Shown here: positions 483 to 22,846 of the stretch, one piece after another
Position numbering within the stretch: position 1 is the first letter of the stretch
How the letters are laid out: every line of letters begins with the position of its first letter
The notes under the pieces: generated by a model
The model's input: the letters and a program-made list of their open reading frames with translations, nothing else
What the model was told of the DNA's origin: nothing
Database searches by the model: none
Virus record (IMG/VR): IMGVR_UViG_3300040816_000387
Coordinates: 1-59,121 of that record
DNA length: 59,121 nucleotides
From: a virus
Strand: one strand, 5' to 3'
Made by a program: the position numbers and the translations under genes

Positions 483-1187
483 TTACTTTTTACCTGTATG
501 TTTACCCATAGATTTAAAAAATTCATTATCTCTAGAATCTCCTAATAATAAAGAATACTTAAAATTCTTCTTCCAACATATATAATCAAAACTTAACTGA
601 TCTCTCTTAGAATTGTACTTTATTTCTTCCCACCAACTTTCCATAACATCAACCACCTCCTTTTCTTTATGCCGCCTTAATATTATAGGATTAGTAGCAA
701 GACCGTTATTGCTAGGATACCCTTCTTTTAAGTACCTGGATACTTGTTGTGTTATTAATTTAGGATTATCTTTATAGTTTAACTTACCTCTATGAGGAGT
801 TATTCTCATATTCTCTTGCCCTTTCTGTAGTATAGCGTTAGCTTCCTCGTATAAACAGTTTCTAGCATCTAGGATAGTTTGATTATGATCGAAGACTTTA
901 TGTAAAGAATCATCTATCAGTTCTCTTACATCTCCGACAACTTTTATGTTACCGTCTATCCATATACTATACTGATAGTCTTTTAAGTACCTATGAGGAA
1001 GTACCTTATACTTTTTTGCATTCCTATTAGCATCATTATATATAGGCAAAGATTTGACTACTCTCCAAGTTCTTGATTTAATATCAGCATCAGTAAAACA
1101 AATATAATCAACGCCATCTAACTGTAATTGATCTTCTATTAAATTGTCGTAATTTCCGAATATGGACGTATATATAGCTACTTTCAT
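483..1187 (-). CDS. DUF616-type glycosyltransferase-like protein
   Basis: 234 residues. The N-terminus 'KVAIYTSIFGNYDNL', the strand 'DYICFTDAD' and the block 'AKKYKVLPHRYLKDYQYS' followed by 'IWIDGNIKV' match the pattern I know from the DUF616 (TOD1/MUCI70-like) glycosyltransferase-fold family, with the IDGN taking the place of the usual DxD-type metal/nucleotide-sugar site. The length suits a single catalytic domain, and no membrane segment or signal peptide is seen. The ATG overlaps the stop of the upstream methyltransferase gene as ATGA, which suggests translational coupling. Donor and acceptor sugars cannot be told from sequence. Neighbouring glycosyltransferases suggest a shared glycan-building task. 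Confidence 0.7.
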   Translation of the reverse strand: MKVAIYTSIFGNYDNLIEDQLQLDGVDYICFTDADIKSRTWRVVKSLPIYNDANRNAKKYKVLPHRYLKDYQYSIWIDGNIKVVGDVRELIDDSLHKVFDHNQTILDARNCLYEEANAILQKGQENMRITPHRGKLNYKDNPKLITQQVSRYLKEGYPSNNGLATNPIILRRHKEKEVVDVMESWWEEIKYNSKRDQLSFDYICWKKNFKYSLLLGDSRDNEFFKSMGKHTGKK

Positions 1188-1768
1188 AATACTTTACATA
1201 TTATACCCTCAGAGTCTGCTAACCTTTTATCTTTAGTAATATTTTCTGACTTACACATATAGAACTCTGTAGACATAGGATGACCTACTTTTAACTCTAC
1301 CTGTAAAATAGATCTGTCAACATACTCATCTACTGCTCTTTTAACTTCTGGTATTAAACCATAATCGTCAAAAACTAAGTAGATAGGCTTAAGTTTAAGA
1401 GCATTCTCTATATCACTTTTAACATGCTTATAATAATGAACACAGTCTATTATAATCATATCATGATACTTAAAACCCCAAGCATCTCTATAAACATCTT
1501 TTCTATAACATACGACACTATCTAAGTTTTCACATAACTTATTTATTCTATCAACTCTAGACCTATCAAGCTCCACACAAGAAAACGTATCTACAAAGTG
1601 ACCTAAAAAATAAGCTGTATGCCCTACTGAAGATCCTATCTCTAATATGCTTTTGACACCATTCTTCACTATAAAGTTATACAAGTCTGTCTTAAATCTC
1701 TTAGAAGTAGTCGTCTTTGAATCAAATTTATCTGGAATAGTATCCAAGATAGTTTTAGGATTGTACAT
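1184..1768 (-). CDS. class I SAM-dependent methyltransferase (Methyltransf_24-like)
   Basis: 194 residues. Motif I is clear at residues 41-50 ('ILEIGSSVGH'). The acidic end of strand 2 is 'CVELDRSRV' (about 68-76), and near residue 105 is 'IIIDCVHYYKHVKSDI', which has the ID-x-x-H-x-Y-x-x-V-x-x-D signature of Methyltransf_24/CmcI-type enzymes, often small-molecule or sugar O-methyltransferases. The start overlaps the upstream stop as TAATG, and the stop overlaps the downstream start as ATGA, so it is embedded in a tightly packed operon. A role in methylating a glycan made by the neighbouring glycosyltransferases is plausible but inferred. It shows little similarity to the truncated methyltransferase at the left edge. 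Confidence 0.75.
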   Translation of the reverse strand: MYNPKTILDTIPDKFDSKTTTSKRFKTDLYNFIVKNGVKSILEIGSSVGHTAYFLGHFVDTFSCVELDRSRVDRINKLCENLDSVVCYRKDVYRDAWGFKYHDMIIIDCVHYYKHVKSDIENALKLKPIYLVFDDYGLIPEVKRAVDEYVDRSILQVELKVGHPMSTEFYMCKSENITKDKRLADSEGIICKVL

Positions 1769-2625
1769 TAAAAATATATTTGAGAATTTATAATATTGGA
1801 ACCTAGATCACCTCTAGGAATAGTATAGGTAGGAGCGTAACGTGCTATAGTATCGTGTACTCCTGTTTGATTTCCTATGTTAAACTTAGCTTTAGACTTT
1901 ATATACATCTGTACTCTTATATCCACATGCCTTAAATCTAAAGCTTTTTTAAAGTTTAAATTAATATTAGGATTAGAAAACCAGTAATAAGCAGGATAGT
2001 TAAATGTGTTTAACTCATTTATCTTATTTTGTATTATAGGCAGCTCCTCTTCCTTATACCTATTAGATATTAATACTGTAAAGAAGTCATTAGTTCCAGT
2101 GTGTTGGTTTATTATAGCATCCCCCAAACTTTTTTCTTCGTCTGTCCAGTAAATCTCTGGATCTAAATCTTGCATCTCATCTTCTCGAAACTGCCAGAAC
2201 CTAAGAATCTGCTTTAGTAAAGGCTCCTCTTCTTCAGTATAAATTCTATAATGGTCATTAAATACCTCTTCAGAAAAGTAATCTATAAAGTCGTCAACGT
2301 ATGGATTATTCTTAAAGACTACTTCAGATACGTTAAAAGGGTTATCCCAAGAATCCCAATTATCTTTTAAGTGTACAAATAGATGAGAAAGAAGATCCTT
2401 ATTAGGAATAAAAACTTTACAATTAGGATATTTTTCTTTGAGCTTTCTAGGCATTGCAGAAATAATGCCCCAATCCCCAACTCCCATACAGGTCCTTAAT
2501 ACAATAAAATACTGCTCTTCTAAATAAAAATTTGGTATATAAAATGGATCTTTTATAGAAAATCCTAACTTATCCACATGTTTAATAGGATGTAAAGCAT
2601 TACCAAAAGTTCTCCAAAAAACCAT
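1768..2625 (-). CDS. putative GT9/heptosyltransferase-like protein
   Basis: 285 residues. The stretch 'TCMGVGDWGIISAMPRKLK' followed by 'YPNCKVFIPNKDLL' and 'NNPYVDDFIDYF' has the order seen in GT-B heptosyltransferase-like (GT9) proteins: a GxGD loop near the start, a strand for the donor domain, then a 'P.VD' strand. Near the C-terminus 'NIGNQTGVHDTIARYAP' resembles the GT9 donor-site segment that contains 'D.G..H.A'. The match is by pattern only and is weaker than for the two GT9-like paralogues elsewhere in the window. It lies one base from the GT2 gene upstream and overlaps the methyltransferase downstream by one base. No signal peptide. Confidence 0.45.
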   Translation of the reverse strand: MVFWRTFGNALHPIKHVDKLGFSIKDPFYIPNFYLEEQYFIVLRTCMGVGDWGIISAMPRKLKEKYPNCKVFIPNKDLLSHLFVHLKDNWDSWDNPFNVSEVVFKNNPYVDDFIDYFSEEVFNDHYRIYTEEEEPLLKQILRFWQFREDEMQDLDPEIYWTDEEKSLGDAIINQHTGTNDFFTVLISNRYKEEELPIIQNKINELNTFNYPAYYWFSNPNINLNFKKALDLRHVDIRVQMYIKSKAKFNIGNQTGVHDTIARYAPTYTIPRGDLGSNIINSQIYF

Positions 2626-2626
2626 A

Positions 2627-3391
2627 TTATAATGTATTATAGTAATTATTCTGCCTTTCTTGTCTATCTATATCTTTAAAGTGAAGTATATCTAAATCAT
2701 TATCTACAGGTATTCTGGCAAAGTTGTTAGAGCCTACAACTCTTTCATGAAGTTTGCCATCCCATTTTATCCCTTCTTTATTCTTGTAAAGTCTAGTCTG
2801 ATAGTCAGGATAGTTTATTATAGGACAGTAATACCTAACTACATTAATATTATCAGCGTGATTATGCTCAGATATTATAAAGCCGTTATCCTTAAGAAAC
2901 TTATAAGACTCTGAAGAAGTATCGTACTCATCTGAGTCTGCGTAGTTCTCGTCTCTACCTATAAACCATCCCCAAGAGTCTATATGCTTTTGTGTTATAC
3001 CTTTAACTATATTAACTCTAGGTATAGCTATAAGATCTATATTAGAAGGCTCATTTACATTTATAATATTGTGAAGATTAGTATATAAGTGTAAGGACAG
3101 GTACTCGTCTGCATCTATTTGGAATATCCAATCATTCTTACATAAACTATTTCCGAAGTTCTTATAATCTGAAAAGTTTCCTTTAAAGTCAAAAGGAAGA
3201 TAGGAATACTTATCTATCTTATTATCAAAATTAACAAGAATTTCTTTTACATCGTCTGTTACTTTATTAGAATCGTAGACTACTACTATTTCATCTCCCG
3301 CACTTTTTCCAGTAGAAAGCTGCTTTAGTAGTCGATCTAACTCCCTAAACTCGTCACAAACTGTAACTAGGAAACTTATAGTACTACTCAT
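2627..3391 (-). CDS. family 2 glycosyltransferase (GT-A fold)
   Basis: 254 residues. The N-terminus 'TISFLVTVCDEFRELDRLL' and 'DEIVVVYDSNK' (residues 33-43) are the first strands of a GT2 nucleotide-sugar domain. 'WIFQIDADEYL' places the metal-binding DxD at residues 93-95. The C-terminal part ('YQTRLYKNKEGIKWDGKLHE') is the region that in WaaE/SunS-like GT2 enzymes closes the active site. It would act in the host cytoplasm on an unknown acceptor. The start overlaps the upstream gene's end by eight bases, consistent with one operon. A copy of the dispersed 17-bp motif lies within it at 3292-3308. Confidence 0.85.
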   Translation of the reverse strand: MSSTISFLVTVCDEFRELDRLLKQLSTGKSAGDEIVVVYDSNKVTDDVKEILVNFDNKIDKYSYLPFDFKGNFSDYKNFGNSLCKNDWIFQIDADEYLSLHLYTNLHNIINVNEPSNIDLIAIPRVNIVKGITQKHIDSWGWFIGRDENYADSDEYDTSSESYKFLKDNGFIISEHNHADNINVVRYYCPIINYPDYQTRLYKNKEGIKWDGKLHERVVGSNNFARIPVDNDLDILHFKDIDRQERQNNYYNTL

Positions 3392-3860
3392 CTTCTTTAG
3401 ATATTAACATAAACTGATCAAAAGCTTCCAGAAACTTATCTTTATCAAAAGTAGAAGCATTCTCAAAATCGACTACAGTATTGTAAAACTCTCCTGGCTT
3501 ATCTGGATTAGGATAGTTTTTAGACTCCTCCTCATTAAGCATCTTAAAAGGAACTACTTGCCATTTATAATCTGAAGTGTTCGTGTCTAATATAGGGAAC
3601 ATACTAGCCTTACTAGTAGAGTTCATAGATAATACCCAGGCATACCCTTTATCATATTTGATTAATTCGTACACAAACTTAGGTATCTTTTCCTTTAACT
3701 CTTCTAAAGTCTTTGAGCCTTCTACTAAAAAAGAGTTAGTAGTATAACCAGACTCTGTACATAGTTTTGACCATAATCCAGTAGACGAATCCTTATCTAC
3801 TAGAACACATAAATTATTAGTTATAGGAGATATTTCATCAAAAGTAAATCTATTTTCCAT
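3384..3860 (-). CDS. hypothetical protein in glycosyltransferase operon
   Basis: 158 residues, no family recognised. The protein is acidic at its end ('DKFLEAFDQFMLISKEDE') and appears soluble, with an alternating strand/helix pattern and no signal peptide, metal cluster or nucleotide-binding loop. The gene lies exactly between a GT4 and a GT2 gene, abutting the first and overlapping the second by eight bases, so it is almost certainly co-translated with them. An accessory or binding-protein role in the same glycan pathway is a guess from position only. Confidence 0.6.
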   Translation of the reverse strand: MENRFTFDEISPITNNLCVLVDKDSSTGLWSKLCTESGYTTNSFLVEGSKTLEELKEKIPKFVYELIKYDKGYAWVLSMNSTSKASMFPILDTNTSDYKWQVVPFKMLNEEESKNYPNPDKPGEFYNTVVDFENASTFDKDKFLEAFDQFMLISKEDE

Positions 3861-5132
3861 TTATATCTTTTTTAATTTAGGAAGTGTTAAAGGAACTTCT
3901 TTAGTAACAGGAATACTGTCAAGTATATGATGCAGTTTACTTGACATTTTATCAAAAGTAAAGTTAGATAGCGTGTGCTTTCTCTGTTCTTCAGACCTCT
4001 TTAAAACCTCAGAGTAATTCTTTTCTATAGACTGTAATATTTTAATAGCATAGGCATAGTTAACAGTAAACCATCGTGCCTCTTGCATAAACCACTTATT
4101 GACTACAGACTTGTGTACTTGAGTTAAATCTCCTGGAAGTAAGTAGGACATATTACTGTCTAAGAAATCCATTTGTCCTGACCATCCAGAAGCAATAACA
4201 GGCTTACCAGTAGCTGTAAACTCCAATAAAGGTCTACCAAATCCTTCACCTTTAGTAAAACTAACCATCGCTTTTACTTTATGATGGTTATACAAACCAT
4301 TCATTTGTTGGTCTGATAACTGTCCATGAATCAGATACACAGACGGACAGTTATCTACAGTATCTCTTATAGCTTGTATTTTTTTATTTATTTCGTACCT
4401 ATCGCTAACTGAGAATCCAGATCCGCTAGTTTTTAATATAAGAGCAGGTCTTGTTCTAGAAGGTTTATTTTTAAAAGCTTCACAGAAAGTTTTTACTAGC
4501 ATCCCGACATCTTTTCTATCTTGGCCTAAATCCCCTTCTAACCAATGTCCTACGAATAAAAAACAAAAATCTTCTTTTATAGAAGATAGCTTATCTTTTA
4601 CTTCCTGGTCTATTTTAGAAGTCTTTTTAAATATATCAGTGTCTATACCTTCAAAAAGAACTTCCGTTCTAAGACTTTCTTTTAAGGCTACTGACCCTAT
4701 TATCTGATTAGTAGTCTTATCTTGTTTATCGTATTTCGAGTTCTTTAAAACAGATACAGAGTGTTCACTGACTCCTATAAGCATATCCATATTATTAGCT
4801 CCCTCAATCCATTCTGGCTTACATAGATCAGTCTCTATACCAGCTGTCATACCTATATTATACTTACCTAATCTAGAAAACTCATTAGGTATAGTCAATT
4901 GTATAAAGATATCAGGATTGGGTGTAGGTCTTTTAGTAATACGAGACTCAATAGCTCTACCAACTTCAGTAGTAGTGTCTAAACCATTCCAAGAAGTATT
5001 TCCCCAATTAGTAGGAAATATTTCTAAATCATAATCTGAATAGGATATAATACATCTTGCAATGTCTCTAGCGTGGTCTCCGTAACCAGACCTTGTCTTA
5101 ACAGGTGCGTACAATAAAACTCTCTTACTCAT
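3861..5132 (-). CDS. family 4-type (GT-B) glycosyltransferase
   Basis: 423 residues from the ATG at 5132. A longer reading from a TTG at 5141 would add three residues and overlap the upstream stop, so I prefer the ATG two bases after that stop. 'VLLYAPVKTRSGYGDHARDI' is the acceptor-domain start typical of GT4 enzymes. 'LFVGHWLEGDLGQDRKD' opens the donor domain, and 'EGFGRPLLE' at residues 296-304 is the EX7E motif that binds the nucleotide sugar, followed by 'GKPVIASGWSGQMDFL'. A retaining transferase acting in the cytoplasm is expected. It sits directly downstream of a two-gene GT4 (6605-5135) that it resembles in fold. Confidence 0.85.
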   Translation of the reverse strand: MSKRVLLYAPVKTRSGYGDHARDIARCIISYSDYDLEIFPTNWGNTSWNGLDTTTEVGRAIESRITKRPTPNPDIFIQLTIPNEFSRLGKYNIGMTAGIETDLCKPEWIEGANNMDMLIGVSEHSVSVLKNSKYDKQDKTTNQIIGSVALKESLRTEVLFEGIDTDIFKKTSKIDQEVKDKLSSIKEDFCFLFVGHWLEGDLGQDRKDVGMLVKTFCEAFKNKPSRTRPALILKTSGSGFSVSDRYEINKKIQAIRDTVDNCPSVYLIHGQLSDQQMNGLYNHHKVKAMVSFTKGEGFGRPLLEFTATGKPVIASGWSGQMDFLDSNMSYLLPGDLTQVHKSVVNKWFMQEARWFTVNYAYAIKILQSIEKNYSEVLKRSEEQRKHTLSNFTFDKMSSKLHHILDSIPVTKEVPLTLPKLKKI

Positions 5133-5134
5133 AT

Positions 5135-6064
5135 TTACCAAGTTATACCTATATTTTCTGAAAAAGAACTCTCAAATTTATCTACCTTAGTAACCGTAAA
5201 GTTCTCAGTAGGAGTCCAGTTCTCTAATAAAAAATTAATATGTTTTACAAATCTATTACACATCTCTTTAGATGACATACCAGATTCTTCACTTACCGCC
5301 CACTTTCTTCCTTCAAGGCCTAGCTGTTTTCTTTTTTCAGGTTTTATATAATACCAATACCCTATAGCTTTTGACACATCCTCAAACTTACATCTATCAT
5401 CAAATATATAAGGAGTAGGTACAGAACCTTGCAAAGATCTGTTGCTAGGGTACACAGGCTTTACCCAAGTCCCGTGATTTGTATAGTGTCCTGTATGATT
5501 AGAAGTTATAGTAGAATCAAAGTTTATCCAGTTACCTTCACTGTCCTCAAACCTACACTGGTCTTGTAGTCCTCCTGTAACATTATTTATGATAGGAGTC
5601 CCTGCCATAATAGACTCAGCCCCACTTAAACCGAACCCTTCATTCGATGCTATATTTAAAGTAACATCTGATAGGTTATAAAAAAAGTTTAACTCTTTAG
5701 AGGAAATCTTTGCATCAGAAAAAATAATATTACAGTCAGGGCAGACTGCTTCTTTAACTGCTTTTAAATTAGTTCCATTCTCATCAGAGACCTGAGTGTG
5801 CATAAACAGACCGACATGCTTTGCCTGTTCCTCACTCAGAGTGTTTGTAAAGTGCCTGAAAGATAAGATAACGTCTCCAGGCTGCTTTCTTCTTATGTTC
5901 CTATTATTCCAGAATACAATAAAGTTCAAATCATGTTTAGAAAGGAACTCATTCTTAAACTTAATAAAATCTTCGTAATCTTTGTCCCCTTCTACGATAG
6001 GCCTAAAAGCATTTTCGTTTATACCATGTGGGACATAGGCTGTGTAAATAGTTCTATTGTTCAT
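5135..6064 (-). CDS. C-terminal (donor) half of a split GT4 glycosyltransferase
   Basis: 309 residues that correspond to the second half of a GT-B enzyme. It opens with 'YTAYVPHGINENAFRPI', normally the hinge between the two domains, then 'IVFWNNRNIRRKQ', and has the EX7E motif 'EGFGLSGAE' at residues 142-150 followed by 'MAGTPIINNVTGG'. There is no acceptor domain in this frame. The preceding gene (6054-6605) supplies exactly that half. The ATG overlaps the end of the upstream frame by 11 bases. In-frame stops lie immediately upstream of the ATG, so simple read-back of a single base error would have to fall within that short overlap. Likely works as a heterodimer or reflects a recent frameshift. 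Confidence 0.75.
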   Translation of the reverse strand: MNNRTIYTAYVPHGINENAFRPIVEGDKDYEDFIKFKNEFLSKHDLNFIVFWNNRNIRRKQPGDVILSFRHFTNTLSEEQAKHVGLFMHTQVSDENGTNLKAVKEAVCPDCNIIFSDAKISSKELNFFYNLSDVTLNIASNEGFGLSGAESIMAGTPIINNVTGGLQDQCRFEDSEGNWINFDSTITSNHTGHYTNHGTWVKPVYPSNRSLQGSVPTPYIFDDRCKFEDVSKAIGYWYYIKPEKRKQLGLEGRKWAVSEESGMSSKEMCNRFVKHINFLLENWTPTENFTVTKVDKFESSFSENIGITW

Positions 6065-8163: not shown

Positions 8164-10497
8164 CTAGTGTCCTTCTAAAAAGTTTGAAGATATTTCTGGA
8201 GGAGACTTTAAGGTAACACCCTCTAACTTAACGGTATTTTCCATTATATGTTGAACAGTAGGCATAACTTGCTCTACTACATCTTCTCTTACTTCTATTA
8301 TTAATTGGTCATGAATCTGAGCTACTACTTGCCCATCTATGCCTAAACGTTTTAACTCTAAATTTATTTTTAAAGCAGCCCTATTAACTATAGAAGCTGC
8401 TAAAGATTGTATCTGAAAATTAAGAGATGCGTTATAGGAGTTTTTTAAATCTCTATATAAGTTTAGTACTGCTTCTTCTCCCAAATTTTTTGCTAGTTCT
8501 TTTCTAAAACCAAAATCTAAAATCTGACTTCCATACTTATCAAAAACCTCCTTACCTCTAACTAAATGTCTTGCTCTACCTACTTTATTCTTTATTACCC
8601 CAGTTCTTTCAAACTCCTCCTTTGAGTCCTCTATCCACTCAGCAACTCCTGGAAATCCTTCTAAGTAAGCTTCTCTTAACTCTTCTCCTTCTTTAGTAGG
8701 TATGCCTAGAGACTTGGCCAGAGCAAACCCAGACATACCGTAAGCAATACCTAAAGCATACGCCTTTGCTTTCTGTCTCTTTGAAGGATTTACTTTTTTA
8801 AGATAGTTATCTGCTTTTTTATCAGGAGACACTCCCTCTAACTTTTCTGTTCGTATAGCTACCGTACTATAAAAATCATGACCTTTATTAAATATCTCTT
8901 GTAGATTAATATCATTAGATATACTAGCAAAGATATGAGGCTCTAATGACTCGTAATCAGAGTCTATAAACTTATACCCAGGCCTAGAAATAAAGAATGC
9001 TCTAATCCTATTATTATACTTAATAACTATTGGATCATCTTCCCCGTCTTCTTTAGGCTTAGGCAACTGTTGTAAATCACTTCCGTATCTTCCAGTCACT
9101 GTACCGTGTTGTTTGAAGTACGGATAAAAAACTCCATCATCACTCTTCTCTAAGAGTCTATCAACATAAGTAGACTTTATCTTTAGAAGCCTATTATATA
9201 TTCTTAACTTATTAGCCCACTCAGCATCTTCTGCAATCTTTTCTATAACAGCATCATTAACTTGTTTAGCTCCTTTATCAGTGACTGATATAGCCTCGTA
9301 TTCTAAGCAGTCAAAAAATATATCAGATAAATGTTTTTTAGAACTTATGTTTATATACTCTCCTTTATTAAACTCTTTCCACAACTGTAAACTTATATTA
9401 GTTAAATCAGAATCTATAGAAGAGTCCACATCATTAACATCTAATAGAAAGTTTTTATAAGGAGAATCTTCTAAGGCTTCTATGTTCTTTTTAGAAAAAG
9501 AGTAGTTACCTGATTTATTCTTATCTAAAGGTATGTTCTTATACTCTACTAGTTTTTTAGCAAAAGATCCTTTATTTTTATAAGGGAACTTAGTTTTAGC
9601 TTGTTGTATTACCCAATGTTTTACTTTATTGAACTTTAGTAAATCATTAACTACCTGCTCTCTATAAGACTCTATGTGTAAAGATATTTCATCTCCCGTA
9701 CTTTTTATGAAGTCTATATCCAGTAAAACCCCTCTTCTTTCCATAGGGACAGTTACTTCCTTATATACAGGCATAACTTCTTCATTAAAAAAGAAATCCC
9801 TCATACCCTCCTTGTCTATCCTAAACACAAAGTAGGCGGCTAATCTAAGAGTTAAGTCGGTATCAGCACAAGCATATTTTGAAAGTAAATCAAAATCAGC
9901 CTTGTATAATTCAAAGTCAGTAGAAGACACTTTACCTCCATTCTTTACTATACTTTCTTTTAAGTCTATCTGTTCTTGATTAGCTTCATCATCCTCATCT
10001 AATTGCAAATCCTTCTTAAGCATTTGTGCCAAAGACTTCAAAGCAAAAGGTTTACCAAAACCTATCGCACCTTCCTCCATAATAGTATGCGCAGCTAAAG
10101 TAGTCTCACAATAAAGATAAGGAAGTAAGTCTACTCCATATTGGTAAAATATTATAGAAGTATCAAAAGAACCGTTATGTGTGATTATCTTTTTATTATT
10201 CTCTACCAGACATAAGAAAACTTTTTTTAAAAAGTCAGAACCTTTTACTCTCCCTATATAAAAATCATCGAAAGAATCAGTTTCTAAATTGTATATTAAA
10301 GTAGGGATATAAAAAGATATACCCGCTTTAGTACAAAAAGATGCTCCAATTATTCTATCTTTTCTAACATTCAAGCCAGTGGTTTCTGTATCCACTGCTA
10401 CTGCATTGGCCTCTTTTAATAAAGATATACATCTAATAACATCTTCCTTATTCTTTACAGTAAAATAATCTTTATGTACTCTTCTTTGTTCAGACAT
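8164..10497 (-). CDS. family A DNA polymerase with 3'-5' exonuclease
   Basis: 777 residues. The N-terminal DnaQ-like exonuclease is intact: D36/E38 ('VAVDTETTGL'), D112 ('THNGSFDTS') and Y208/D212 ('YACADTD'). The polymerase half has 'TVTGRYGSDLQQLP', motif A 'DSDYESLEPH' with catalytic D514 and steric-gate E519, motif B 'RQKAKAYALGIAYG' with R574, K578 and Y586, and motif C 'QIHDQLIIEV' with D730. The position equivalent to E. coli F762 is Leu582, a variant known from viral PolA surveys. No 5'-3' exonuclease domain; that function is separate at 18176-19198. It appears to be the main replicase, in place of the family B gp43 of T4. It overlaps the upstream gene by eight bases, and a copy of the dispersed motif lies at 9690-9706. 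Confidence 0.95.
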   Translation of the reverse strand: MSEQRRVHKDYFTVKNKEDVIRCISLLKEANAVAVDTETTGLNVRKDRIIGASFCTKAGISFYIPTLIYNLETDSFDDFYIGRVKGSDFLKKVFLCLVENNKKIITHNGSFDTSIIFYQYGVDLLPYLYCETTLAAHTIMEEGAIGFGKPFALKSLAQMLKKDLQLDEDDEANQEQIDLKESIVKNGGKVSSTDFELYKADFDLLSKYACADTDLTLRLAAYFVFRIDKEGMRDFFFNEEVMPVYKEVTVPMERRGVLLDIDFIKSTGDEISLHIESYREQVVNDLLKFNKVKHWVIQQAKTKFPYKNKGSFAKKLVEYKNIPLDKNKSGNYSFSKKNIEALEDSPYKNFLLDVNDVDSSIDSDLTNISLQLWKEFNKGEYINISSKKHLSDIFFDCLEYEAISVTDKGAKQVNDAVIEKIAEDAEWANKLRIYNRLLKIKSTYVDRLLEKSDDGVFYPYFKQHGTVTGRYGSDLQQLPKPKEDGEDDPIVIKYNNRIRAFFISRPGYKFIDSDYESLEPHIFASISNDINLQEIFNKGHDFYSTVAIRTEKLEGVSPDKKADNYLKKVNPSKRQKAKAYALGIAYGMSGFALAKSLGIPTKEGEELREAYLEGFPGVAEWIEDSKEEFERTGVIKNKVGRARHLVRGKEVFDKYGSQILDFGFRKELAKNLGEEAVLNLYRDLKNSYNASLNFQIQSLAASIVNRAALKINLELKRLGIDGQVVAQIHDQLIIEVREDVVEQVMPTVQHIMENTVKLEGVTLKSPPEISSNFLEGH

Positions 10498-12813: not shown

Positions 12814-13025
12814 TATTTATCTTTTTCTTTATAACTAATACCGTACTCCTGTATAAATCTATCCTTAAAAGCCTCTCCCACACCTATGTATACTATCTCG
12901 TACTCATAGGGAAGAAGAGGCTTTTTTTTGGATATACTTAACAAATCGTCTAAAGTATTTTCTGTAAATATACTAATTTTTTCTTTACTTTTTTTTGACT
13001 CCTTATAAACAACAACTAAAAACAT
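12813..13025 (-). CDS. hypothetical small protein
   Basis: 70 residues, basic and lysine-rich ('YKESKKSKEKISIF'), with two short strand-like stretches ('MFLVVVYKE', 'YEIVYIGVGE') and a terminal 'YGISYKEKDK'. No family recognised. It shares one base with both the NrdA gene upstream and the helicase gene downstream, so it is translationally coupled. The phrase 'YIGVGEAFKDRF' could be a nucleotide-pocket turn, but this is not enough for a call. Confidence 0.55.
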   Translation of the reverse strand: MFLVVVYKESKKSKEKISIFTENTLDDLLSISKKKPLLPYEYEIVYIGVGEAFKDRFIQEYGISYKEKDK

Positions 13026-15778
13026 TACTCACAACTTACACATTCTAAAATATTTCTTGAAAACATTTGTGCAGAGTTTTGACTAAACTGGTAGTACAGA
13101 GTTTTGATACCTTCCTCCCAAGCATATAAATATAGTTGATTAATATCTTTAGCAGGTATTGAAGGGTGTATTTGTAAATTTAAACTCTGAGACTGGTCTA
13201 TATACTTCTGCCTCTGTGCTGCTTGTAAAATTATTTCCTTTGGAGAAATCTCTACAAAAGTTTTGAACACTTCTTTTGTAGGAAAATCTAAGTGCTGTAC
13301 GGATCCATCTTTTTTAAGAATGCTATCCCAAACTTCTTCGGTATCTAAACTATACTTTTCTAACTCTGCTTTTAAGAAAGGATTCTTATATACAGTCTTT
13401 ATCTTTGCTAAATCTTTTACGAAGTAATTAGACTTAATAGGCTCAATACCCATAGATACTTGACCTAAAATAAAAGAACTTGATTTTGTAGGAGCAATAG
13501 CCATTAAAGTAGAGTTAGCATATCCATCTCTAACACATTGATACTTTGTAGGCATAGACATATATAAATCTTGAGAAGCCTTATCTGTACGCTCTTTTAA
13601 TGTACTAAAAATCTTATGATTGTATTGCTTTGCTTGTAAGGACTCAAAAGCTATATTTTTAGACTGAAGTAAAGAGTGATACCCTAAAACTCCTACACCT
13701 ATTGCCCTATGTTCTCTTGCGAATCTATGAGCTTTCTTCATTCCTGGTAAATCCCAAGCCTTTTGTATGAACTCATCCATTACTGCATTTAAAAAATAAA
13801 CATAGGTTTCTACAGCATCTGTTTTCTCTATCTCATCCCAATGTAGTAAGTTTATAGATCCTATGCAACAAACAAAAGATACATCATCATCTGAAGGGAG
13901 CATTATCTCCGAACAATTAAAAGTTTTCAACCCATTTGAAACAAAAATATGCTCATCAGTATAAACAGTCGGACAGTATACTGGTTCATTTTCTAATTTT
14001 TCTATGGATATTACCTTTGCTCTTTTTTTAGAATTATCTCTGTAATCTCTTGACTCTATAACCACACCTTTTCTTGTTAGGAAAGATGTTTTTTCTTCTA
14101 TTTTTAAAGCATCATTTTTATTTGAAAATATTAATCGCCAACAATCTTGAGTATTATAATATTTATGACCACCTTTACCATCAGGCAATAAAGTTTCTCC
14201 TGCATGTCTTAATATTTTTATAGAAGAAGAGAGTCCTAAATTTGTAAATAATACTTGTAATTCTTCCAAAAAGCCTCTGTTGATACAAGCATAACTTATT
14301 TGTAATGGATTACCGTTAGAAGTTCCTAAATTTGCTGTACCATCTGCATATAAAAGACCTCTTAAATATGACCATACAGTCTCTTCATTAGCCTCCCATA
14401 CCCAAGATGGAACATACCCTTTTTCAAAGTTTAATGCTTTTTTTAAAGTTCTTGAAGTTAATCGTTTCTTTCTAACTGTAGATTGGTTAGTACAGCACTC
14501 AACGAACTCAGCTGGTTTTCTTTTTCTTACAGAATTAGTTTTGCCCGTTTGATTAACTACTTGATAAGTATCACAACCATATTCATAATGTATTTTATTA
14601 AATTTTTCTTGGATTTCATCTACTAAATCAAAATCATTTTCCCATATATCAATCATAATCGAATCTTTATGCTGTGTTCCATCTGCTTGATATAATCCTA
14701 ATAAAAATGCTTCATCTTTCATATCTACTGTTCCGAAGATACCTTTATTAGTTTGAGTAGCAACATAATCTCCTATTCTTAAATCTTTAGCCTCTACTCT
14801 TACTATATCTTTTTTAGTATCATTTAACACAGCTATTCCGTGATTAGGACTTACTTTTTGAGACATTCCATTTGAATAAGTTATTTTAAGAACTTCTGAA
14901 TTATCATCCCTTAATAACATTTTTGATGCTTTAACTTCTTTCTCTCCATCAAACAAAATTAGCTCCTCCTCACTTTCATAGAGTTCTTGTACTGTTAAAT
15001 ACCCTTTTGAGGTAACAACCCTTTGATCAGAAGTTAAACATAGATTAGACGCTTTTATAGTATAAGGTAAATACTTGTAAGGAGTATTAAGGTTAGCTGT
15101 AGTTCTGAACATAATATAAGGAAGTCCAATCTCTCCTCTTCTTTGTATAATCTTCGCCCAAACTTTTCTCTTATAGGAATCCCCATCTTTCATATGTTGT
15201 AACCACTCATCTCCAACAGTAACTCCATACTGTAAATTTTGAATAGGATTACCTTCTGTGGCAATATCTAAAAATTCCAAAATATCATCGTGTTCTACGG
15301 GTAAGTATACAGCACAAGCACCTCGTCTTGCTTCAGCTTGTTTACACACATCTATAACAGTATCATAAAGTTTAGCATAATGTACTGGTCCATCAGCCTT
15401 ACCGCCAGTTCTTATAGAAGCACCTCTTGGCCGTATATCACCTAAATAAGCAGAAGTTCCTCCTCCATATTTTGACATCATTCCAATCTCTTTTGTAACA
15501 TCTAACATAGAATCCATACTATCATCAACATAGGAGCCATAACAACTTATAGGCAGTCCTTTATCTTTAGCGAAATTAACCCACACAGGAGTAGAAAGAC
15601 TATAAAAACCTCTTGACATATAGTCTTCAAACTTTTCAGAGAACCCTTGGATACCTAATAATCTTTCAGCAGCATCTGCTATTTCCTTAATTCTTTCTTC
15701 GGCAGATTCTTGTATATACCCTCTTGATAAGAAAGTTCTTGCATCATCATTAAGCCAATAATATTTATCGTACGACAT
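13025..15778 (-). CDS. nrdA: class I ribonucleotide reductase large subunit, intein-containing
   Basis: 917 residues as translated; removal of the 375-residue intein (C247-N621) leaves 542. The extein has 'LPISCYGSYVDDSMDSM', the substrate-side 'IKASNL/CSEIMLP' active-site segment (split by the intein exactly before its cysteine), 'VCCIGSINLL' where the thiyl-radical cysteine is expected, 'RAIGVGVLG', 'APTKSSSFILGQVSMGIEP' and the C-terminal redox pair 'CVSC'. There is no N-terminal ATP cone, so dATP overall-activity control is probably absent. It reduces ribonucleotides with NrdB, encoded 17 bases upstream. The mature protein is shorter than T4 NrdA. Confidence 0.95.
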   Translation of the reverse strand: MSYDKYYWLNDDARTFLSRGYIQESAEERIKEIADAAERLLGIQGFSEKFEDYMSRGFYSLSTPVWVNFAKDKGLPISCYGSYVDDSMDSMLDVTKEIGMMSKYGGGTSAYLGDIRPRGASIRTGGKADGPVHYAKLYDTVIDVCKQAEARRGACAVYLPVEHDDILEFLDIATEGNPIQNLQYGVTVGDEWLQHMKDGDSYKRKVWAKIIQRRGEIGLPYIMFRTTANLNTPYKYLPYTIKASNLCLTSDQRVVTSKGYLTVQELYESEEELILFDGEKEVKASKMLLRDDNSEVLKITYSNGMSQKVSPNHGIAVLNDTKKDIVRVEAKDLRIGDYVATQTNKGIFGTVDMKDEAFLLGLYQADGTQHKDSIMIDIWENDFDLVDEIQEKFNKIHYEYGCDTYQVVNQTGKTNSVRKRKPAEFVECCTNQSTVRKKRLTSRTLKKALNFEKGYVPSWVWEANEETVWSYLRGLLYADGTANLGTSNGNPLQISYACINRGFLEELQVLFTNLGLSSSIKILRHAGETLLPDGKGGHKYYNTQDCWRLIFSNKNDALKIEEKTSFLTRKGVVIESRDYRDNSKKRAKVISIEKLENEPVYCPTVYTDEHIFVSNGLKTFNCSEIMLPSDDDVSFVCCIGSINLLHWDEIEKTDAVETYVYFLNAVMDEFIQKAWDLPGMKKAHRFAREHRAIGVGVLGYHSLLQSKNIAFESLQAKQYNHKIFSTLKERTDKASQDLYMSMPTKYQCVRDGYANSTLMAIAPTKSSSFILGQVSMGIEPIKSNYFVKDLAKIKTVYKNPFLKAELEKYSLDTEEVWDSILKKDGSVQHLDFPTKEVFKTFVEISPKEIILQAAQRQKYIDQSQSLNLQIHPSIPAKDINQLYLYAWEEGIKTLYYQFSQNSAQMFSRNILECVSCE
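13916..15040 (-). other. intein with LAGLIDADG-type endonuclease in NrdA
   Basis: Encodes C247-N621 of the precursor. Block A starts 'CLTSDQRVVTSKGYLTVQEL', block B has 'SPNHGIAVL' (H313), two endonuclease motifs are 'LLGLYQADGT' (359-368) and 'LRGLLYADGT' (472-481), and the C-terminal blocks are 'VYCPTVYTDEHIFVSNG' and a final 'KTFN' before the +1 cysteine. The penultimate residue is Phe instead of the usual His. The residues before and after join into the conserved SNLCSEI of NrdA. Both catalytic Asp of the endonuclease motifs are present, so homing may still be active. Confidence 0.93.
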
Positions 15779-16853: not shown

Positions 16854-18173
16854 TTAATCAAAACTAAAATTAGAAACATCAAAACTACCACTCACAGCAG
16901 GACGTGATACAGCATTATCTATAGGATTCTCCAGAACTTCTATATCTCCTATAGAAGCGTTGAACCTACAAGGAAAGGTCATACCATCAGGACCAAACCT
17001 ATTTTTTATTATATGCATGTTAGCGATACCAGAAGTCTTATCCTCTGTCCTTCTAGCCAAAGATATTATAAAATCACCAGTAGCTATCTTAGAATAATCT
17101 TCTGCTATCCTATTGGCTTGTATTACTTCCTCATCAATAGAAGACCTATTACTTTGAGAAGCAGTCCATACAGGACAGTTGTACTCACTAGACAGCTCCC
17201 TAAGACTCATATAAATTTGGTTTAACTCTGTTCTTAACTCCTTATGTCCTCCTTTCAACAAATCAGCATAATCAACTATAATAAGATCAGGAACTATTTC
17301 ATTAGCAATACACCTATCTAAATGTCCTCTTATAGTATTAATAGAAGCTCCTTTAGAAGGATAATCTTGTACAACAATATTACCTTTAAGAGATTCTACT
17401 ATCTTCCTAACCTCTTCTTTATTTACTTCTAGTTCTGAGTTTTGAAACTTACTAAAAATACTATCATATCTTTTAGAAGTGTAGATCTTATTTAACTCTA
17501 AAGTATAGTGTACTACTGTCTTTCCTTCTTTTGCGGCGGATGCTCCTAAAGAACTAAGTACCCAAGACTTACCTGCTCCAGAAGGAGCCACTACTATACC
17601 TAACTCTCCTGGACCTAAGCCTCCTTGACTTATCCTATTAATAGGACTCCAGGGAGTTTTTACTGCATACCTACTCTCTTCCGAATACCTAAGATCAAAG
17701 GAATCTTTATAAACATGTCCGATATCTTTAGACATGCCTATTTTATGTGCCTTATCTATCAGTACCTTAACTGAATCAAAATCGTTCTTTTCTAGTAAAG
17801 GAATAGAATCTTTTATAGCTATTCTCAAAGCATTGTTCTTACAGAACTGTAATACTTTATCTTTTACATAAGATAGATCTGAGGACTTTAACTGTTCATT
17901 AGCATCTTTAAGAAACAAGAAAGCTTCAGTTTTGAAGTTATCATCTCGCCCAGAATTTACTATCTCAGTCTTTATAACTGTAGAAGATGGTGACTTTTTG
18001 TATTCCTCATAGTAGCTCAATATAGAAGATACTACCCAAGAATATGAAGGATTAACAAAGTACTCTGGCTTGAGTATGTCTGATGCCTGTGCCAAAAAAG
18101 AACTATCTTCTAATATGGAAGCGACTACTTTTGTCTCAAAGTCCCTTCCATAAACATTAAAACTATCTGTCAT
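16854..18173 (-). CDS. replicative DNA helicase, DnaB/T4 gp41-like
   Basis: 439 residues. An N-terminal helical domain (1-150) is followed by the RecA-like motor: 'GGLGPGELGIVVAPSGAGKS' holds Walker A at 196-203, 'LIIVDYADLL' (about 297-306) is Walker B, and 'TASQSNRSSIDEE' and 'FIISLARRTEDK' match the DnaB motifs that sense nucleotide and bind DNA. T4 gp41 is of similar length (475). It should unwind the fork 5'-3' ahead of the family-A polymerase. The stop of the flap nuclease gene upstream lies only two bases before its ATG. Confidence 0.9.
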   Translation of the reverse strand: MTDSFNVYGRDFETKVVASILEDSSFLAQASDILKPEYFVNPSYSWVVSSILSYYEEYKKSPSSTVIKTEIVNSGRDDNFKTEAFLFLKDANEQLKSSDLSYVKDKVLQFCKNNALRIAIKDSIPLLEKNDFDSVKVLIDKAHKIGMSKDIGHVYKDSFDLRYSEESRYAVKTPWSPINRISQGGLGPGELGIVVAPSGAGKSWVLSSLGASAAKEGKTVVHYTLELNKIYTSKRYDSIFSKFQNSELEVNKEEVRKIVESLKGNIVVQDYPSKGASINTIRGHLDRCIANEIVPDLIIVDYADLLKGGHKELRTELNQIYMSLRELSSEYNCPVWTASQSNRSSIDEEVIQANRIAEDYSKIATGDFIISLARRTEDKTSGIANMHIIKNRFGPDGMTFPCRFNASIGDIEVLENPIDNAVSRPAVSGSFDVSNFSFD

Positions 18174-18175
18174 AT

Positions 18176-19198
18176 CTACTTTTTAAATATACGTAACCAA
18201 AAATTCATTTCATCTCTATCGACATTAAAACCGAAGTCGCTCAATTTACTAAAAAAAGATTTAGCATCAAAATCAAAAGGATCTTTTTCTATTATGTTGC
18301 TAATTAAAGTTTTGTTCATAGAAGATATAGAAGGTTCTAGTAACTGCATAAGATTATAGTTTCTGTCTATAGTAAGTTTATTATTTACTATATTCTCAAA
18401 TATTTTATCTTTCTTACCTGAGCTAAGAGCTTCTTCTGCTTTCTCTATAACAGTTTCTACATCTAGGACAGTATCTTTAGAGTCTAGGTCAAAATGTTTG
18501 TTTAAGCCCTTCTCGCCAACATATTTTACACCTTTAATATTATCAGATCTGTCGCCAGTAAAGCATCTTAAAGTTAAGTAGTTCAAAGGTAAATACCCAT
18601 ACTCAGAGACCATTCTATCTTTATCTATAAGTTGTTTTTTTACATGGCTATAGATAAAAGTATTATCATCTATTAAATGTAAAAAATCTTTATCTGTACT
18701 AACAATTATTTTAAGATACTCCTCAGAACTAAACACCTCTCTACATAAATAAGATATACAGTCATCAGCCTCTATATAATCTACAGATAATACCTTAATA
18801 GGCAAATAAGATAAAGTTTCAAATAATTGAGAGAACTGATAAGCTCTCTCATTATTTTCATCTACAGCACCTTTTGTATCTGGAAATCTATTATATTTTG
18901 AAGAAGGAGTTCTATAGGACTTATATTCTTTTAGCAACTTCTTTCTCCTAAGACTTCCTCCTTTGCCATCAAAGACAATAAATATCTCTTTAGGTATGTA
19001 ATCTTTACACACTTTCTTAAGATTCTGAAAAAAACCATAAACACCTCCTATAAGATATCCCGTAGAATCTATTCTAGGATTAACCTCATAGTGTCTTATA
19101 AACAAGTTAAAACCGTCTATAATTACTACGTTACTCTTATTAGAGGTGTATTGGTTTTCTCTAAACTTTTTATAGTGTTCTAAAATGCTATCGTCCAT
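18176..19198 (-). CDS. 5'-3' exonuclease/flap nuclease, T4 RNase H-like
   Basis: 340 residues from the ATG at 19198, which is four bases after the recombinase stop. A TTG at 19210 would overlap that gene and is less likely. Acidic residues of the FEN fold are visible in 'VVIIDGFNLF' (D28), 'EIFIVFDGKGG', 'DYIEADDCISYL' and 'IVSTDKDFLHL'. 'CFTGDRSDNIKGVKYVGEKG' is the H3TH region that holds potassium and duplex DNA. The enzyme would remove RNA primers and flaps, a function missing from the family-A polymerase of this phage. Confidence 0.9.
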   Translation of the reverse strand: MDDSILEHYKKFRENQYTSNKSNVVIIDGFNLFIRHYEVNPRIDSTGYLIGGVYGFFQNLKKVCKDYIPKEIFIVFDGKGGSLRRKKLLKEYKSYRTPSSKYNRFPDTKGAVDENNERAYQFSQLFETLSYLPIKVLSVDYIEADDCISYLCREVFSSEEYLKIIVSTDKDFLHLIDDNTFIYSHVKKQLIDKDRMVSEYGYLPLNYLTLRCFTGDRSDNIKGVKYVGEKGLNKHFDLDSKDTVLDVETVIEKAEEALSSGKKDKIFENIVNNKLTIDRNYNLMQLLEPSISSMNKTLISNIIEKDPFDFDAKSFFSKLSDFGFNVDRDEMNFWLRIFKK

Positions 19199-19202
19199 AC
19201 TA

Positions 19203-20381
19203 TTAGTCAAAGTCTAATATACTATCAGCATCTAAAGGCTTACTAGAATCTTCCTGGTAAGAGATCTTTTCAAAAGTACTATCTGGATCATAAGGGATGA
19301 CCATAGCTTTCTCAAGTTCATCTAAAAGATACTCGTTATATAAAGGATCGCTAAATACTAAATCTACAAAATCTTTATTTTGAAATTTAATAGTATCATG
19401 TTTCTCCCCAGTAACTTTGTCTTTATACGTAAAAGAGTTCCAAGCACCAGTCTTACTTATAATGTTATAGTCAACTAAAGCTTCTAAAATACTATCAATA
19501 TCATCCATACCTCTAGAAAAGTAGATACTGTAATTAACTTTTCTTTTGGGAGGTCCTAATCTATTTTTATCAATAGTAGCTTCTGTCTTATAACCTAAAA
19601 GCTCAGTGCCTTGTGTAGGTATCTTACCTACCCTCTTCAAACGTATACGAACAGAAGCGGCAAATGGAATAGCCTTACCCCCACTTGTAATATATTTATC
19701 AGGGCTAAAAGGACCTGCATTAAGATTAATTCTTAACTGATTAGTAAATACTAAAGTTACCTTCTTAATACCTACAAAGTTAGTCATCTTTCTCATAGCC
19801 TTACTGATTATAATAGACTTGTCAGTAGCATATCCGTCTTTTTGATAATCAGACTCAAACTCCTTTTTTGTAGTAGCCCCCATAATAGAGTCTACGATAA
19901 TAGTTAAAGGAATATCCTTACTCTTCTCTCTAAAAGAATGAATAACTTTTTCTATTGTTTCAAAAATATCCTCTATAGCCGATAAAGGTATTAGAATAAG
20001 TCGATCTAAATCTACACCTATAGCAGAGAAAAACTCCTTACTTACAGCACTTTCAGTATCTATGTAGACTACTTGACCGCCTTTTTGTTGTGTAGACTTA
20101 GTAAGGTGAGCGGCTAATAAAGATTTACCGCTACCTTCTAATCCGTATATCTCAGTAATCCTACCTACAGGTATACCACCATTCCTCCTATTTGCAATAG
20201 CATAATCTAAAGGAGTACATCCAGTGGACACAAAATCTGTAACACTAGAAACGGCTTCCTCCTCTTCTCCTAAAAAGTAAGCCTTGTTGTCTGAGTTCTT
20301 GTAGTGCTTATTCAGCTCATCAGTCAACATCCTACCTATATTCAGAAGGGCATCCCCCTCAACTTTATTTTTTTTAGACAT
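19203..20381 (-). CDS. uvsX: RecA/UvsX-type strand-exchange recombinase
   Basis: 392 residues. Walker A 'GLEGSGKS' lies at 80-87 after 'GGIPVGRITEIY', Walker B is in 'PLTIIVDSIMGAT', and 'LVFTNQLRINL' followed by 'SGGKAIPFAASVRIRLKR' are the DNA-binding loop 2 and core strands of RecA/UvsX. The acidic C-terminus 'SSKPLDADSILDFD' matches the regulatory tail of the family. It should form filaments on single-stranded DNA and drive recombination-dependent replication with the SSB encoded 18 bases upstream and the UvsW-like helicase. Confidence 0.93.
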   Translation of the reverse strand: MSKKNKVEGDALLNIGRMLTDELNKHYKNSDNKAYFLGEEEEAVSSVTDFVSTGCTPLDYAIANRRNGGIPVGRITEIYGLEGSGKSLLAAHLTKSTQQKGGQVVYIDTESAVSKEFFSAIGVDLDRLILIPLSAIEDIFETIEKVIHSFREKSKDIPLTIIVDSIMGATTKKEFESDYQKDGYATDKSIIISKAMRKMTNFVGIKKVTLVFTNQLRINLNAGPFSPDKYITSGGKAIPFAASVRIRLKRVGKIPTQGTELLGYKTEATIDKNRLGPPKRKVNYSIYFSRGMDDIDSILEALVDYNIISKTGAWNSFTYKDKVTGEKHDTIKFQNKDFVDLVFSDPLYNEYLLDELEKAMVIPYDPDSTFEKISYQEDSSKPLDADSILDFD

Positions 20382-20399: not shown

Positions 20400-21173
20400 T
20401 TAAAAATCAAAATTTTTAACCAAATCATCAAAGCTAGAGGAGTTATCACTATTAGTAGAAATAGCAGAACTATCAAATTGTGGAGCGGTATCGGTAACAA
20501 AAACTTTACTAGGATCTGTGTATCCTAATTTTCTATCTAATAAAGTCTGAATCTCTTCAATAGAATACTTCTTATACAAATCTTGAATATTAGGAAAAGC
20601 TTTAAGTTTCTCTATAAAAGAAGGATCTGAAAAAGCCTGGCTTGGTTGCGAAGCAAACTGTACCTTATAAGCATAATTAGGACTTTTTGAGTAGCGAATA
20701 TTAATATCTCTACCCTCTTTCAAGTCTAAGAAATTACTGCCAACTAAACTAATCTGGTCAACAAGATCATTAAAAATACTACTGTGCAAAGCCCACAGCT
20801 TAATCCCTTTATCCTCCTGACCTCTAATCAATATAGGACAGTAAAACTTCTCTACTGAAGTGTACTCTCTATCTGCAAGTTCGATCTTACTAGGGTCTCC
20901 AGACTCTCGTAAAGAGTCTCCAAACCTATCAATAGGGTCATTATCCCCAAAAGTTCTAGGAGATAGAAGTACCCTAACATCTTTTAGAAAGTTAAAATGA
21001 AAAAACATCCTAACAAAAGGCATGTCCTTTTGGTGTACATAAGGAAGAATCCTAACAGTAGACGTACCTTCTGGAGGTGTCCATAGATAATCTCCAATAG
21101 AGTTAGTTCTTTTTTTAAAACCAATAGAAGAATTTCTCAATTTGTGCAATGCGGTCAAATTAATTTCTGACAT
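20400..21173 (-). CDS. single-stranded DNA-binding protein, T4 gp32-like
   Basis: 257 residues. The N-terminus ('INLTALHKLRNSSIGFKKR') fits the basic cooperativity arm, the middle has the OB-fold core with 'STVRILPYVHQKDMPFVRMF' and 'VEKFYCPILIRGQEDKGIKL', and the C-terminus is Ser/Asp-rich ('NSDNSSSFDDLVKNFDF'), as in gp32, where it recruits replication proteins. I do not see the full CCHC zinc site of T4 gp32, so it may be a zinc-free variant. It lies directly upstream of uvsX. A TATATTTG box is 31 bases before the ATG. Confidence 0.8.
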   Translation of the reverse strand: MSEINLTALHKLRNSSIGFKKRTNSIGDYLWTPPEGTSTVRILPYVHQKDMPFVRMFFHFNFLKDVRVLLSPRTFGDNDPIDRFGDSLRESGDPSKIELADREYTSVEKFYCPILIRGQEDKGIKLWALHSSIFNDLVDQISLVGSNFLDLKEGRDINIRYSKSPNYAYKVQFASQPSQAFSDPSFIEKLKAFPNIQDLYKKYSIEEIQTLLDRKLGYTDPSKVFVTDTAPQFDSSAISTNSDNSSSFDDLVKNFDF

Positions 21174-21610: not shown

Positions 21611-22846
21611 TCAAAAAGAATACGTCTCCATATCCTTGTAGTTTTTACCTATCTTTACTTTTGATTTAATAATTTTATCTTTTATTTCGGATATTACTTC
21701 TTTCTTATCGTTAACATTAAAGTCTATTAGTATAGAATCATACGTATACATTATTATCTTAGATCTTCTGTCTTTTAATATGTTATAGACTTTATATATA
21801 AATAGCATAGAAAATTCCGTTTCTATCATTTGTATGAAATAATTAAATAGTTTTGATTTTTTCATCTCGCCCAAATTTTCTTTGCTAAGTACCCTACCAG
21901 ACAAAGGACTGACTAAATAACCTAGTTCACTATACTCTTTCCATATACTATCTTTATACTCAGAAGCTTTAGCAAAAAAAGGAATGTCCATAGCCTGTAC
22001 ATCATCAGAGTAGAGATACTTAAACGTAATAGACTTACTCTTAATATACTCTTGCTCCGTTAAACTGTCTTTGTTAAAGTAATACCTGCCTAAATAATTA
22101 TGCACACTACCTTCTTTCGGCAATTCGTAACCCATCAAATGCGATATAAGCCTAATATGATAGGCATCGAAATCAAACTCCAATAAGTAACCTCCATCAA
22201 ATCTACTTATAAAACACCGTCTACTGTCATCTGTTTTATTTAAAGCACTAAAATTCACATTATCGAAAGTATTAGAAGGTCTCCCAGTAATATTGTGTAA
22301 GCTGTAAAAAGATTTTACTAAACTCTCAGAATAAGACTTATTAAAAACAGTATTAAATAAATCTAAATCTACTTTTAAACCATTACTTTCTATGTAAGTC
22401 ACGCACTTATAGACTACATTGGAGTAAAACTTATCAGCTTTACTTATAGTAAAATCAAAAACTAAAAACTTTTTAATTAAAGTTTCGCAAAACTCTTTTA
22501 CTCTCATAAAAGGAATGTACCTATAAAAATCATCTATATGAGAATAGAACTTTTTAAAAGTATTAAAAATACTAAAGTCTACAAAAGAGTCCAAGGGTTT
22601 ATTATACCTTAACCAGTAAAAGGTCTCTAAATCATAGGAATCGGCATCATAAAATCTATCGAAAAGTCTTTTATTAAGTACCACACAAGTGCCTTCTATC
22701 TTAGGAAGATCTACGTTTTTAATATCTGTTAAAGATATAGGATAGTGATTTGTAACACTGCTACCTGTATCGCATATCGCAATATGAGATATGTTCGATT
22801 CTAAATAATGAGAATTGCTTGTAGGCAAACAGATAACTAATTTCAT
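21611..22846 (-). CDS. divergent second family-A DNA polymerase-like protein, no exonuclease
   Basis: 411 residues from the ATG at 22846; a TTG at 22870 would add eight. The C-terminal two thirds follow the PolA palm/fingers order: 'ITGRPSNTFDNVNFSALN' (TGRxSSxxPNLQNIP-like), motif A 'FDFDAYHIRLISHL' with D225 in the catalytic place and His230 where PolA has the steric-gate Glu, motif B 'YIKSKSITFKYLYS' keeping K271, F275 and Y279 but lacking the first Arg, 'LGYLVSPLSGRVL', and motif C 'YTYDSILIDF' with D370 but no His and no Glu. The first 130 residues show no DnaQ motifs. Both metal-binding Asp persist, so activity is possible, perhaps with altered sugar selectivity. A TATATTTG box precedes it. 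Confidence 0.8.
   Translation of the reverse strand: MKLVICLPTSNSHYLESNISHIAICDTGSSVTNHYPISLTDIKNVDLPKIEGTCVVLNKRLFDRFYDADSYDLETFYWLRYNKPLDSFVDFSIFNTFKKFYSHIDDFYRYIPFMRVKEFCETLIKKFLVFDFTISKADKFYSNVVYKCVTYIESNGLKVDLDLFNTVFNKSYSESLVKSFYSLHNITGRPSNTFDNVNFSALNKTDDSRRCFISRFDGGYLLEFDFDAYHIRLISHLMGYELPKEGSVHNYLGRYYFNKDSLTEQEYIKSKSITFKYLYSDDVQAMDIPFFAKASEYKDSIWKEYSELGYLVSPLSGRVLSKENLGEMKKSKLFNYFIQMIETEFSMLFIYKVYNILKDRRSKIIMYTYDSILIDFNVNDKKEVISEIKDKIIKSKVKIGKNYKDMETYSF

Follow-up and report, generated by a model that had tools for sequence, protein, structure and literature searches.

A divergent, non-proofreading family-A DNA polymerase-like protein encoded in the replication operon of aquatic T4-like phages

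A minus-strand gene in a 59,121-nucleotide phage sequence (the window, which belongs to a 102-kb IMG/VR contig) encodes a protein, here named PolA2, that on the evidence of its sequence and predicted structure is a real, deeply diverged family-A DNA polymerase. A second family-A polymerase of this kind, divergent, non-proofreading and with an altered nucleotide site, had been proposed from a sequence-only reading of the window, and the proposal was supported by the predicted fold, by conservation and by the absence of exonuclease motifs. PolA2 is carried by a large group of aquatic T4-like phages and is not their replicase. With roughly even confidence, we regard it as a putative catalytically active accessory polymerase without proofreading, which would serve gap filling or recombination synthesis. 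The relevant features are listed in Table 1.

Table 1. PolA2, its active-site residues and the replication genes of the window (E. coli Pol I numbering in brackets)
Feature	Position in window	Strand	Evidence
PolA2, divergent non-proofreading family-A DNA polymerase-like protein, 411 aa	21611..22846	-	Pfam, PHROG, fold, conservation
PolA2 N-terminal domain, residues 1-110, probable shrunken 3'-5' exonuclease relic	22517..22846	-	conservation, fold-match position
R189 of TGR (R668)	22280..22282	-	invariant, 193 sequences
Motif A catalytic D225 (D705)	22172..22174	-	invariant, 193 sequences
H230, steric-gate position (E710)	22157..22159	-	His in 193/193
Y267, in place of motif B Arg (R754)	22046..22048	-	Tyr in 192/193
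Motif B K271, F275, Y279 (K758, F762, Y766)	22010..22036	-	invariant
Q339 (Q849) and family-specific E342	21821..21832	-	both invariant
Motif C Y369-D370-S371 (H881-D882-E883)	21734..21742	-	Y and D in 191/191 sequences with a letter
Companion ORF, 129 aa	21202..21591	-	downstream of PolA2 in 181/183 loci
gp32-like ssDNA-binding protein	20400..21173	-	PF08804 3.9e-7; synteny
UvsX/RecA recombinase	19203..20381	-	PF00154 3e-43, PHROG 97 1.2e-65
5'-3' exonuclease (FEN / Pol I 5'-nuclease family)	18176..19210	-	PF02739 1.7e-28
DnaB/gp41-like replicative helicase	16854..18173	-	PHROG 19 1.2e-73
Full-length PolA replicase, separate from PolA2	8164..10497	-	Pfam polymerase 3.4e-66, exonuclease 1.4e-11

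Family assignment and predicted structure

The PolA2 reading frame starts with an ATG at 22846 and ends with a stop codon at 21611-21613; a TTG-started frame of 419 aa was not needed, since the homologues align from the ATG. The protein matched DNA_pol_A in Pfam at 3.9e-5, under the gathering cut-off of that family, and PHROG 17 ('DNA polymerase') at 1.1e-6. A profile of the PolA2 family was aligned with Klenow (E 3.5e-5) with TGR, motif A, motif B, Q849 and motif C all in register, confirming the PolA motif order read from the letters, and the numbers then assigned to D225, H230, K271, F275, Y279 and Y369-D370-S371 were correct. This alignment supplied the residue equivalences E710 to H230, R754 to Y267, H881 to Y369 and E883 to S371.

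An AlphaFold model built with 47 family sequences (pLDDT 92.2, pTM 0.89) predicted a polymerase palm, and all of its PDB matches were family-A enzymes (apicoplast Pol, Klenow, Pol nu, Pol theta, Taq and Bst; best E 3.5e-15), with a TM score of 0.71 to Klenow by query length, while its matches among viral structures were phage PolAs. A predicted Klenow-type palm-fingers-thumb fold, together with key motif residues invariant in 191-193 sequences, places PolA2 within family A.

Residues 1-110 were modelled as a small beta-alpha domain, which takes the place of the exonuclease domain in a full-length match spanning nearly all of Klenow. This domain contains neither DxE nor a YxxxD / Exo III motif, and no conserved acidic set for a 3'-5' exonuclease (DxE, D, YxxxD) was found in residues 1-130, in agreement with the claim that PolA2 has no exonuclease; the only conserved positions of the domain are D72, D/E41, H13 and the K59-K60 pair. 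The model of the domain alone retrieved nothing significant from the PDB (best E 0.19, the top hits being polymerase exonuclease domains and DnaQ), and its HMM did not retrieve reference exonuclease domains. These domain-only results led us to reject the description of a proven relic, although the position of the domain in the model suggests that it is probably a dead exonuclease.

The nucleotide-binding site

Conservation was assessed on 193 distinct PolA2 sequences, 191 of which have a letter at motif C Y369/D370; pairwise identity among the first 66 relatives fell as low as 22%. Neither D225 nor H230 was replaced in any of the 193 sequences and D370 was present wherever the position could be read, so free replacement of a catalytic Asp was not observed. 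The retention of both Asp residues and of K271, F275 and Y279, first read in the window protein, extends to its relatives, and the same is true of the His at the steric gate and of the loss of the motif B Arg, which are family-wide traits. Positions P190, N192, N198, Y336 and T343 likewise never varied, and the third residue of motif C was Ala or Ser, never Glu. The most conserved regions include both catalytic Asp, the motif B Lys and Tyr and the motif A region, and dN/dS values of 0.06-0.23 (12 pairs) indicated purifying selection.

The PolA2 representatives were aligned jointly with ten canonical PolAs (E. coli, T7, T5-like, P23-45, SPO1-like and others). Glu710, Arg754 and His881 were shared by every canonical enzyme (10/10 each), whereas all PolA2 representatives had His, Tyr and Tyr, respectively, at these positions. 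Position 883 was occupied by Glu, Ser (4) or Gln (3) in these references and, since Ser or Gln is common there in phage PolAs, the PolA2 Ser is not special; thus, of the contrast drawn earlier between YDS and HDE, the change from His to Tyr stood as unusual and the Ser proved ordinary. In the tree, PolA2 formed a single clade separate from the ten references (support 100/100), with a branch 2.7 changes per column long.

PolA2 shares with the Klenow-type enzymes (E. coli Pol I, Taq, Bst) the fold, the motif order and R668, D705, K758, F762, Y766, Q849 and D882; it differs from them in E710 to H, R754 to Y, H881 to Y, E883 to S/A and A852 to E, in the lack of an active proofreading motif and in a polymerase part of about 300 aa, shortened relative to Klenow ahead of TGR and in the stretch from motif B to motif C. 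Several phage replicative PolAs (from the group T7 gp5, T5-like, SPO1-like, P23-45, vB_Tt72 and the window replicase) have, as PolA2 does, Ser at the E883 position, but PolA2 stands apart from this group in its own long-branched clade, never substitutes for the replicase and has no intact exonuclease motifs.

The residues altered in PolA2 have long been invoked to explain how family-A enzymes discriminate between sugars and bind the triphosphate, and PolA2 therefore represents a natural experiment on these rules. The sugar/phosphate site for the incoming nucleotide (H230, Y267, Y369 and perhaps E342) appears to differ from that of every canonical PolA compared, and a site built in this way would probably confer an altered nucleotide or lesion selectivity. 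These residues are the most interesting part of the protein because they are invariant rather than decayed.

Loss of the Glu and the Arg could alternatively mean weak or no dNTP incorporation. The PolA of phage vB_Tt72, which has Ser at the E883 position, is active; in its mutants, replacement of either catalytic Asp by Ala left about 4% of activity, whereas Glu to Ala at the gate left 35% and Ser to Ala 76% (PMC9324360), indicating that loss of the gate Glu in PolA2 is compatible with activity. The absence of these two normally conserved active-site residues would also suit a non-catalytic replication factor in which the polymerase fold merely holds the primer-template, a structural role raised by the sequence-only reading. 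We consider this very improbable: few parts of PolA2 are as well conserved as the catalytic Asp, the motif B Lys and Tyr and the motif A region, and the invariance of the catalytic Asp and the primer-template contacts weakens a purely structural role.

The invariant changes fall exactly at the sugar gate and the triphosphate contact, as would be expected if PolA2 used ribonucleotides or modified nucleotides for primers or special tracts, with E710 to H opening the gate and R754 to Y changing the triphosphate site. However, in E. coli Pol III alpha the modelled steric gate is itself a His, H760 (PMC8485763), so the change to His need not admit rNTPs and the gate of PolA2 may be closed. Moreover, a DnaG-type primase homologue was found in 11 PolA2 records, including all those of at least 150 kb, both replicase types and the 102-kb contig of the window; with such a primase already present, primer synthesis by PolA2, as suggested earlier, is unlikely, and ribonucleotide or modified-nucleotide use as a whole seems to us quite improbable.

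Relatives, replicases and gene neighbourhood

With three different PolA2 members as queries, scans of IMG/VR yielded 400, 109 and 312 related stretches, sets that may overlap. Confident matches among 50,697 phage records were limited to four immuto phages (Flavobacterium), Microcystis phage Mel-JY01 and one 484-kb uncultured phage, the remaining nine hits being distant ordinary PolAs. Immuto gp001 (annotated 'DNA polymerase family A') and Mel-JY01 WWT39333 (annotated as hypothetical) are direct PolA2 members with the same neighbours, 28% and 25% identical to the window protein, respectively. The annotations and papers searched gave no function for either, and a search of the non-subscription literature found no discussion of PolA2, of Mel-JY01 or of the immuto polymerases. 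Immuto also encodes a full PolA (gp199, 49% identical to the window replicase) and, as a cultured phage, makes PolA2 experimentally accessible. PolA2 was also found on six MAG contigs, which are probably phage sequence binned with hosts; a cellular origin was considered unlikely.

The separate family-A replicase read earlier in the window is real, both its polymerase and its exonuclease domain being matched in Pfam, with all exonuclease residues intact. This replicase and its orthologues are themselves unusual, with Leu in place of F762, Tyr in place of H734 and an HDQ motif C. Sequence comparison of PolA2 with the window replicase yielded nothing usable, and the profile-profile match was weak (E 0.13) yet in register; a recent duplication of the replicase was rejected on these grounds.

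Each of 17 long records carried exactly one PolA2, together with a full PolA (n = 9) or a PolB (n = 8), one of the latter also having a Pol III alpha-like gene; PolA2 was thus never the sole replicative polymerase, and its occurrence beyond one phage is that of a single-copy gene kept alongside either replicase type. In the 484-kb phage (LR756508.1, 47415-48068 and 260623-266900), PolA2 occurs beside a Pol III alpha-like gene and a PolB that is apparently split between two reading frames. A further 25 PolA2 records included seven with PolA and five with PolB, the remainder being fragments with neither, and PolA and PolB did not occur together in any of the 17 long or 25 further records. The replicase type required just one or two changes on the PolA2 tree, possibly one, and scattered replicase swapping was rejected. 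T4 itself has one DNA polymerase. That PolA2 was strictly kept while the main replicase was swapped between unrelated families argues that it does something the replicase does not.

Where over 8 kb of downstream sequence was available, the SSB, UvsX, FEN and helicase genes followed PolA2 on the same strand in 82 of 84 loci. The reverse search, starting from the helicase or FEN, found PolA2 in 39/39 loci that had over 8 kb of upstream sequence, a result limited to fairly close kin and including some contigs already found through PolA2. The companion ORF (~130 aa), which is gp002 in immuto, was strongly conserved, with the signature HRKxxxNxxYTINALNxLI...NxGxLD...W..Y.N, and matched no family beyond chance in Pfam, PHROGs or the PDB. 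It was present in exactly the six of the 50,697 phage records with confident PolA2 matches. Shared ancestry alone could explain this co-distribution; its adjacency to PolA2 and the shared distribution nevertheless make it the first candidate partner.

Possible roles of PolA2

Conservation and the fixed neighbourhood suggest that PolA2 has a dedicated, putative DNA-synthesis job. One candidate is a translesion or damage-tolerance polymerase comparable to Pol theta and Pol nu, with a remodelled pocket that would accept lesions when the replicase stalls. The absence of an intact exonuclease motif, a nucleotide site that is altered yet fixed, the presence of PolA2 whichever replicase the phage uses, and Pol theta and Pol nu among its top fold matches are consistent with this. 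Such fold matches are common to family A as a whole, however, and a place in the core replication operon at nearly every examinable locus would be unusual for an optional damage-response gene; we therefore think a translesion role unlikely.

As an accessory polymerase, PolA2 would instead extend 3' ends left unserved by the replicase. Since it is paired with a Pol I-family 5'-nuclease, the two genes together may amount to a divided Pol I, in which the nuclease would take out primers, leaving gaps that PolA2 would fill. Bacterial Pol I is likewise a non-replicative polymerase encoded with a Pol I-family 5'-nuclease; PolA2 differs in being one of two separate genes and in its remodelled nucleotide site. 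Gap filling after primer removal is the likeliest use, put forward tentatively from the gene neighbours; against it, T4-like phage operons mix functions, and in half of these phages the full PolA replicase could itself fill gaps. The next-likeliest use would be the extension of recombination joints made by UvsX.

It is possible, although we hold it doubtful, that PolA2 constitutes a functionally new class within family A, defined by the His gate, a Tyr for the triphosphate Arg and a Tyr before the motif C Asp. With a new small subunit, such an enzyme would carry out a replicase-independent synthesis step common to T4-like phages whose replicases are unrelated, and its selectivity for sugar or base may be altered.

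Other genes were observed in the window and in immuto. The minus strand of the window encodes the large subunit of a ribonucleotide reductase, with an intein bearing a LAGLIDADG endonuclease domain (13025-15778), and a cluster of glycosyltransferase and methyltransferase genes (483-6064), similar to one in immuto. The immuto genome (NC_055915.1, 18607-37015) carries a 7-deazaguanine pathway with DpdA, suggesting that immuto DNA is probably modified.
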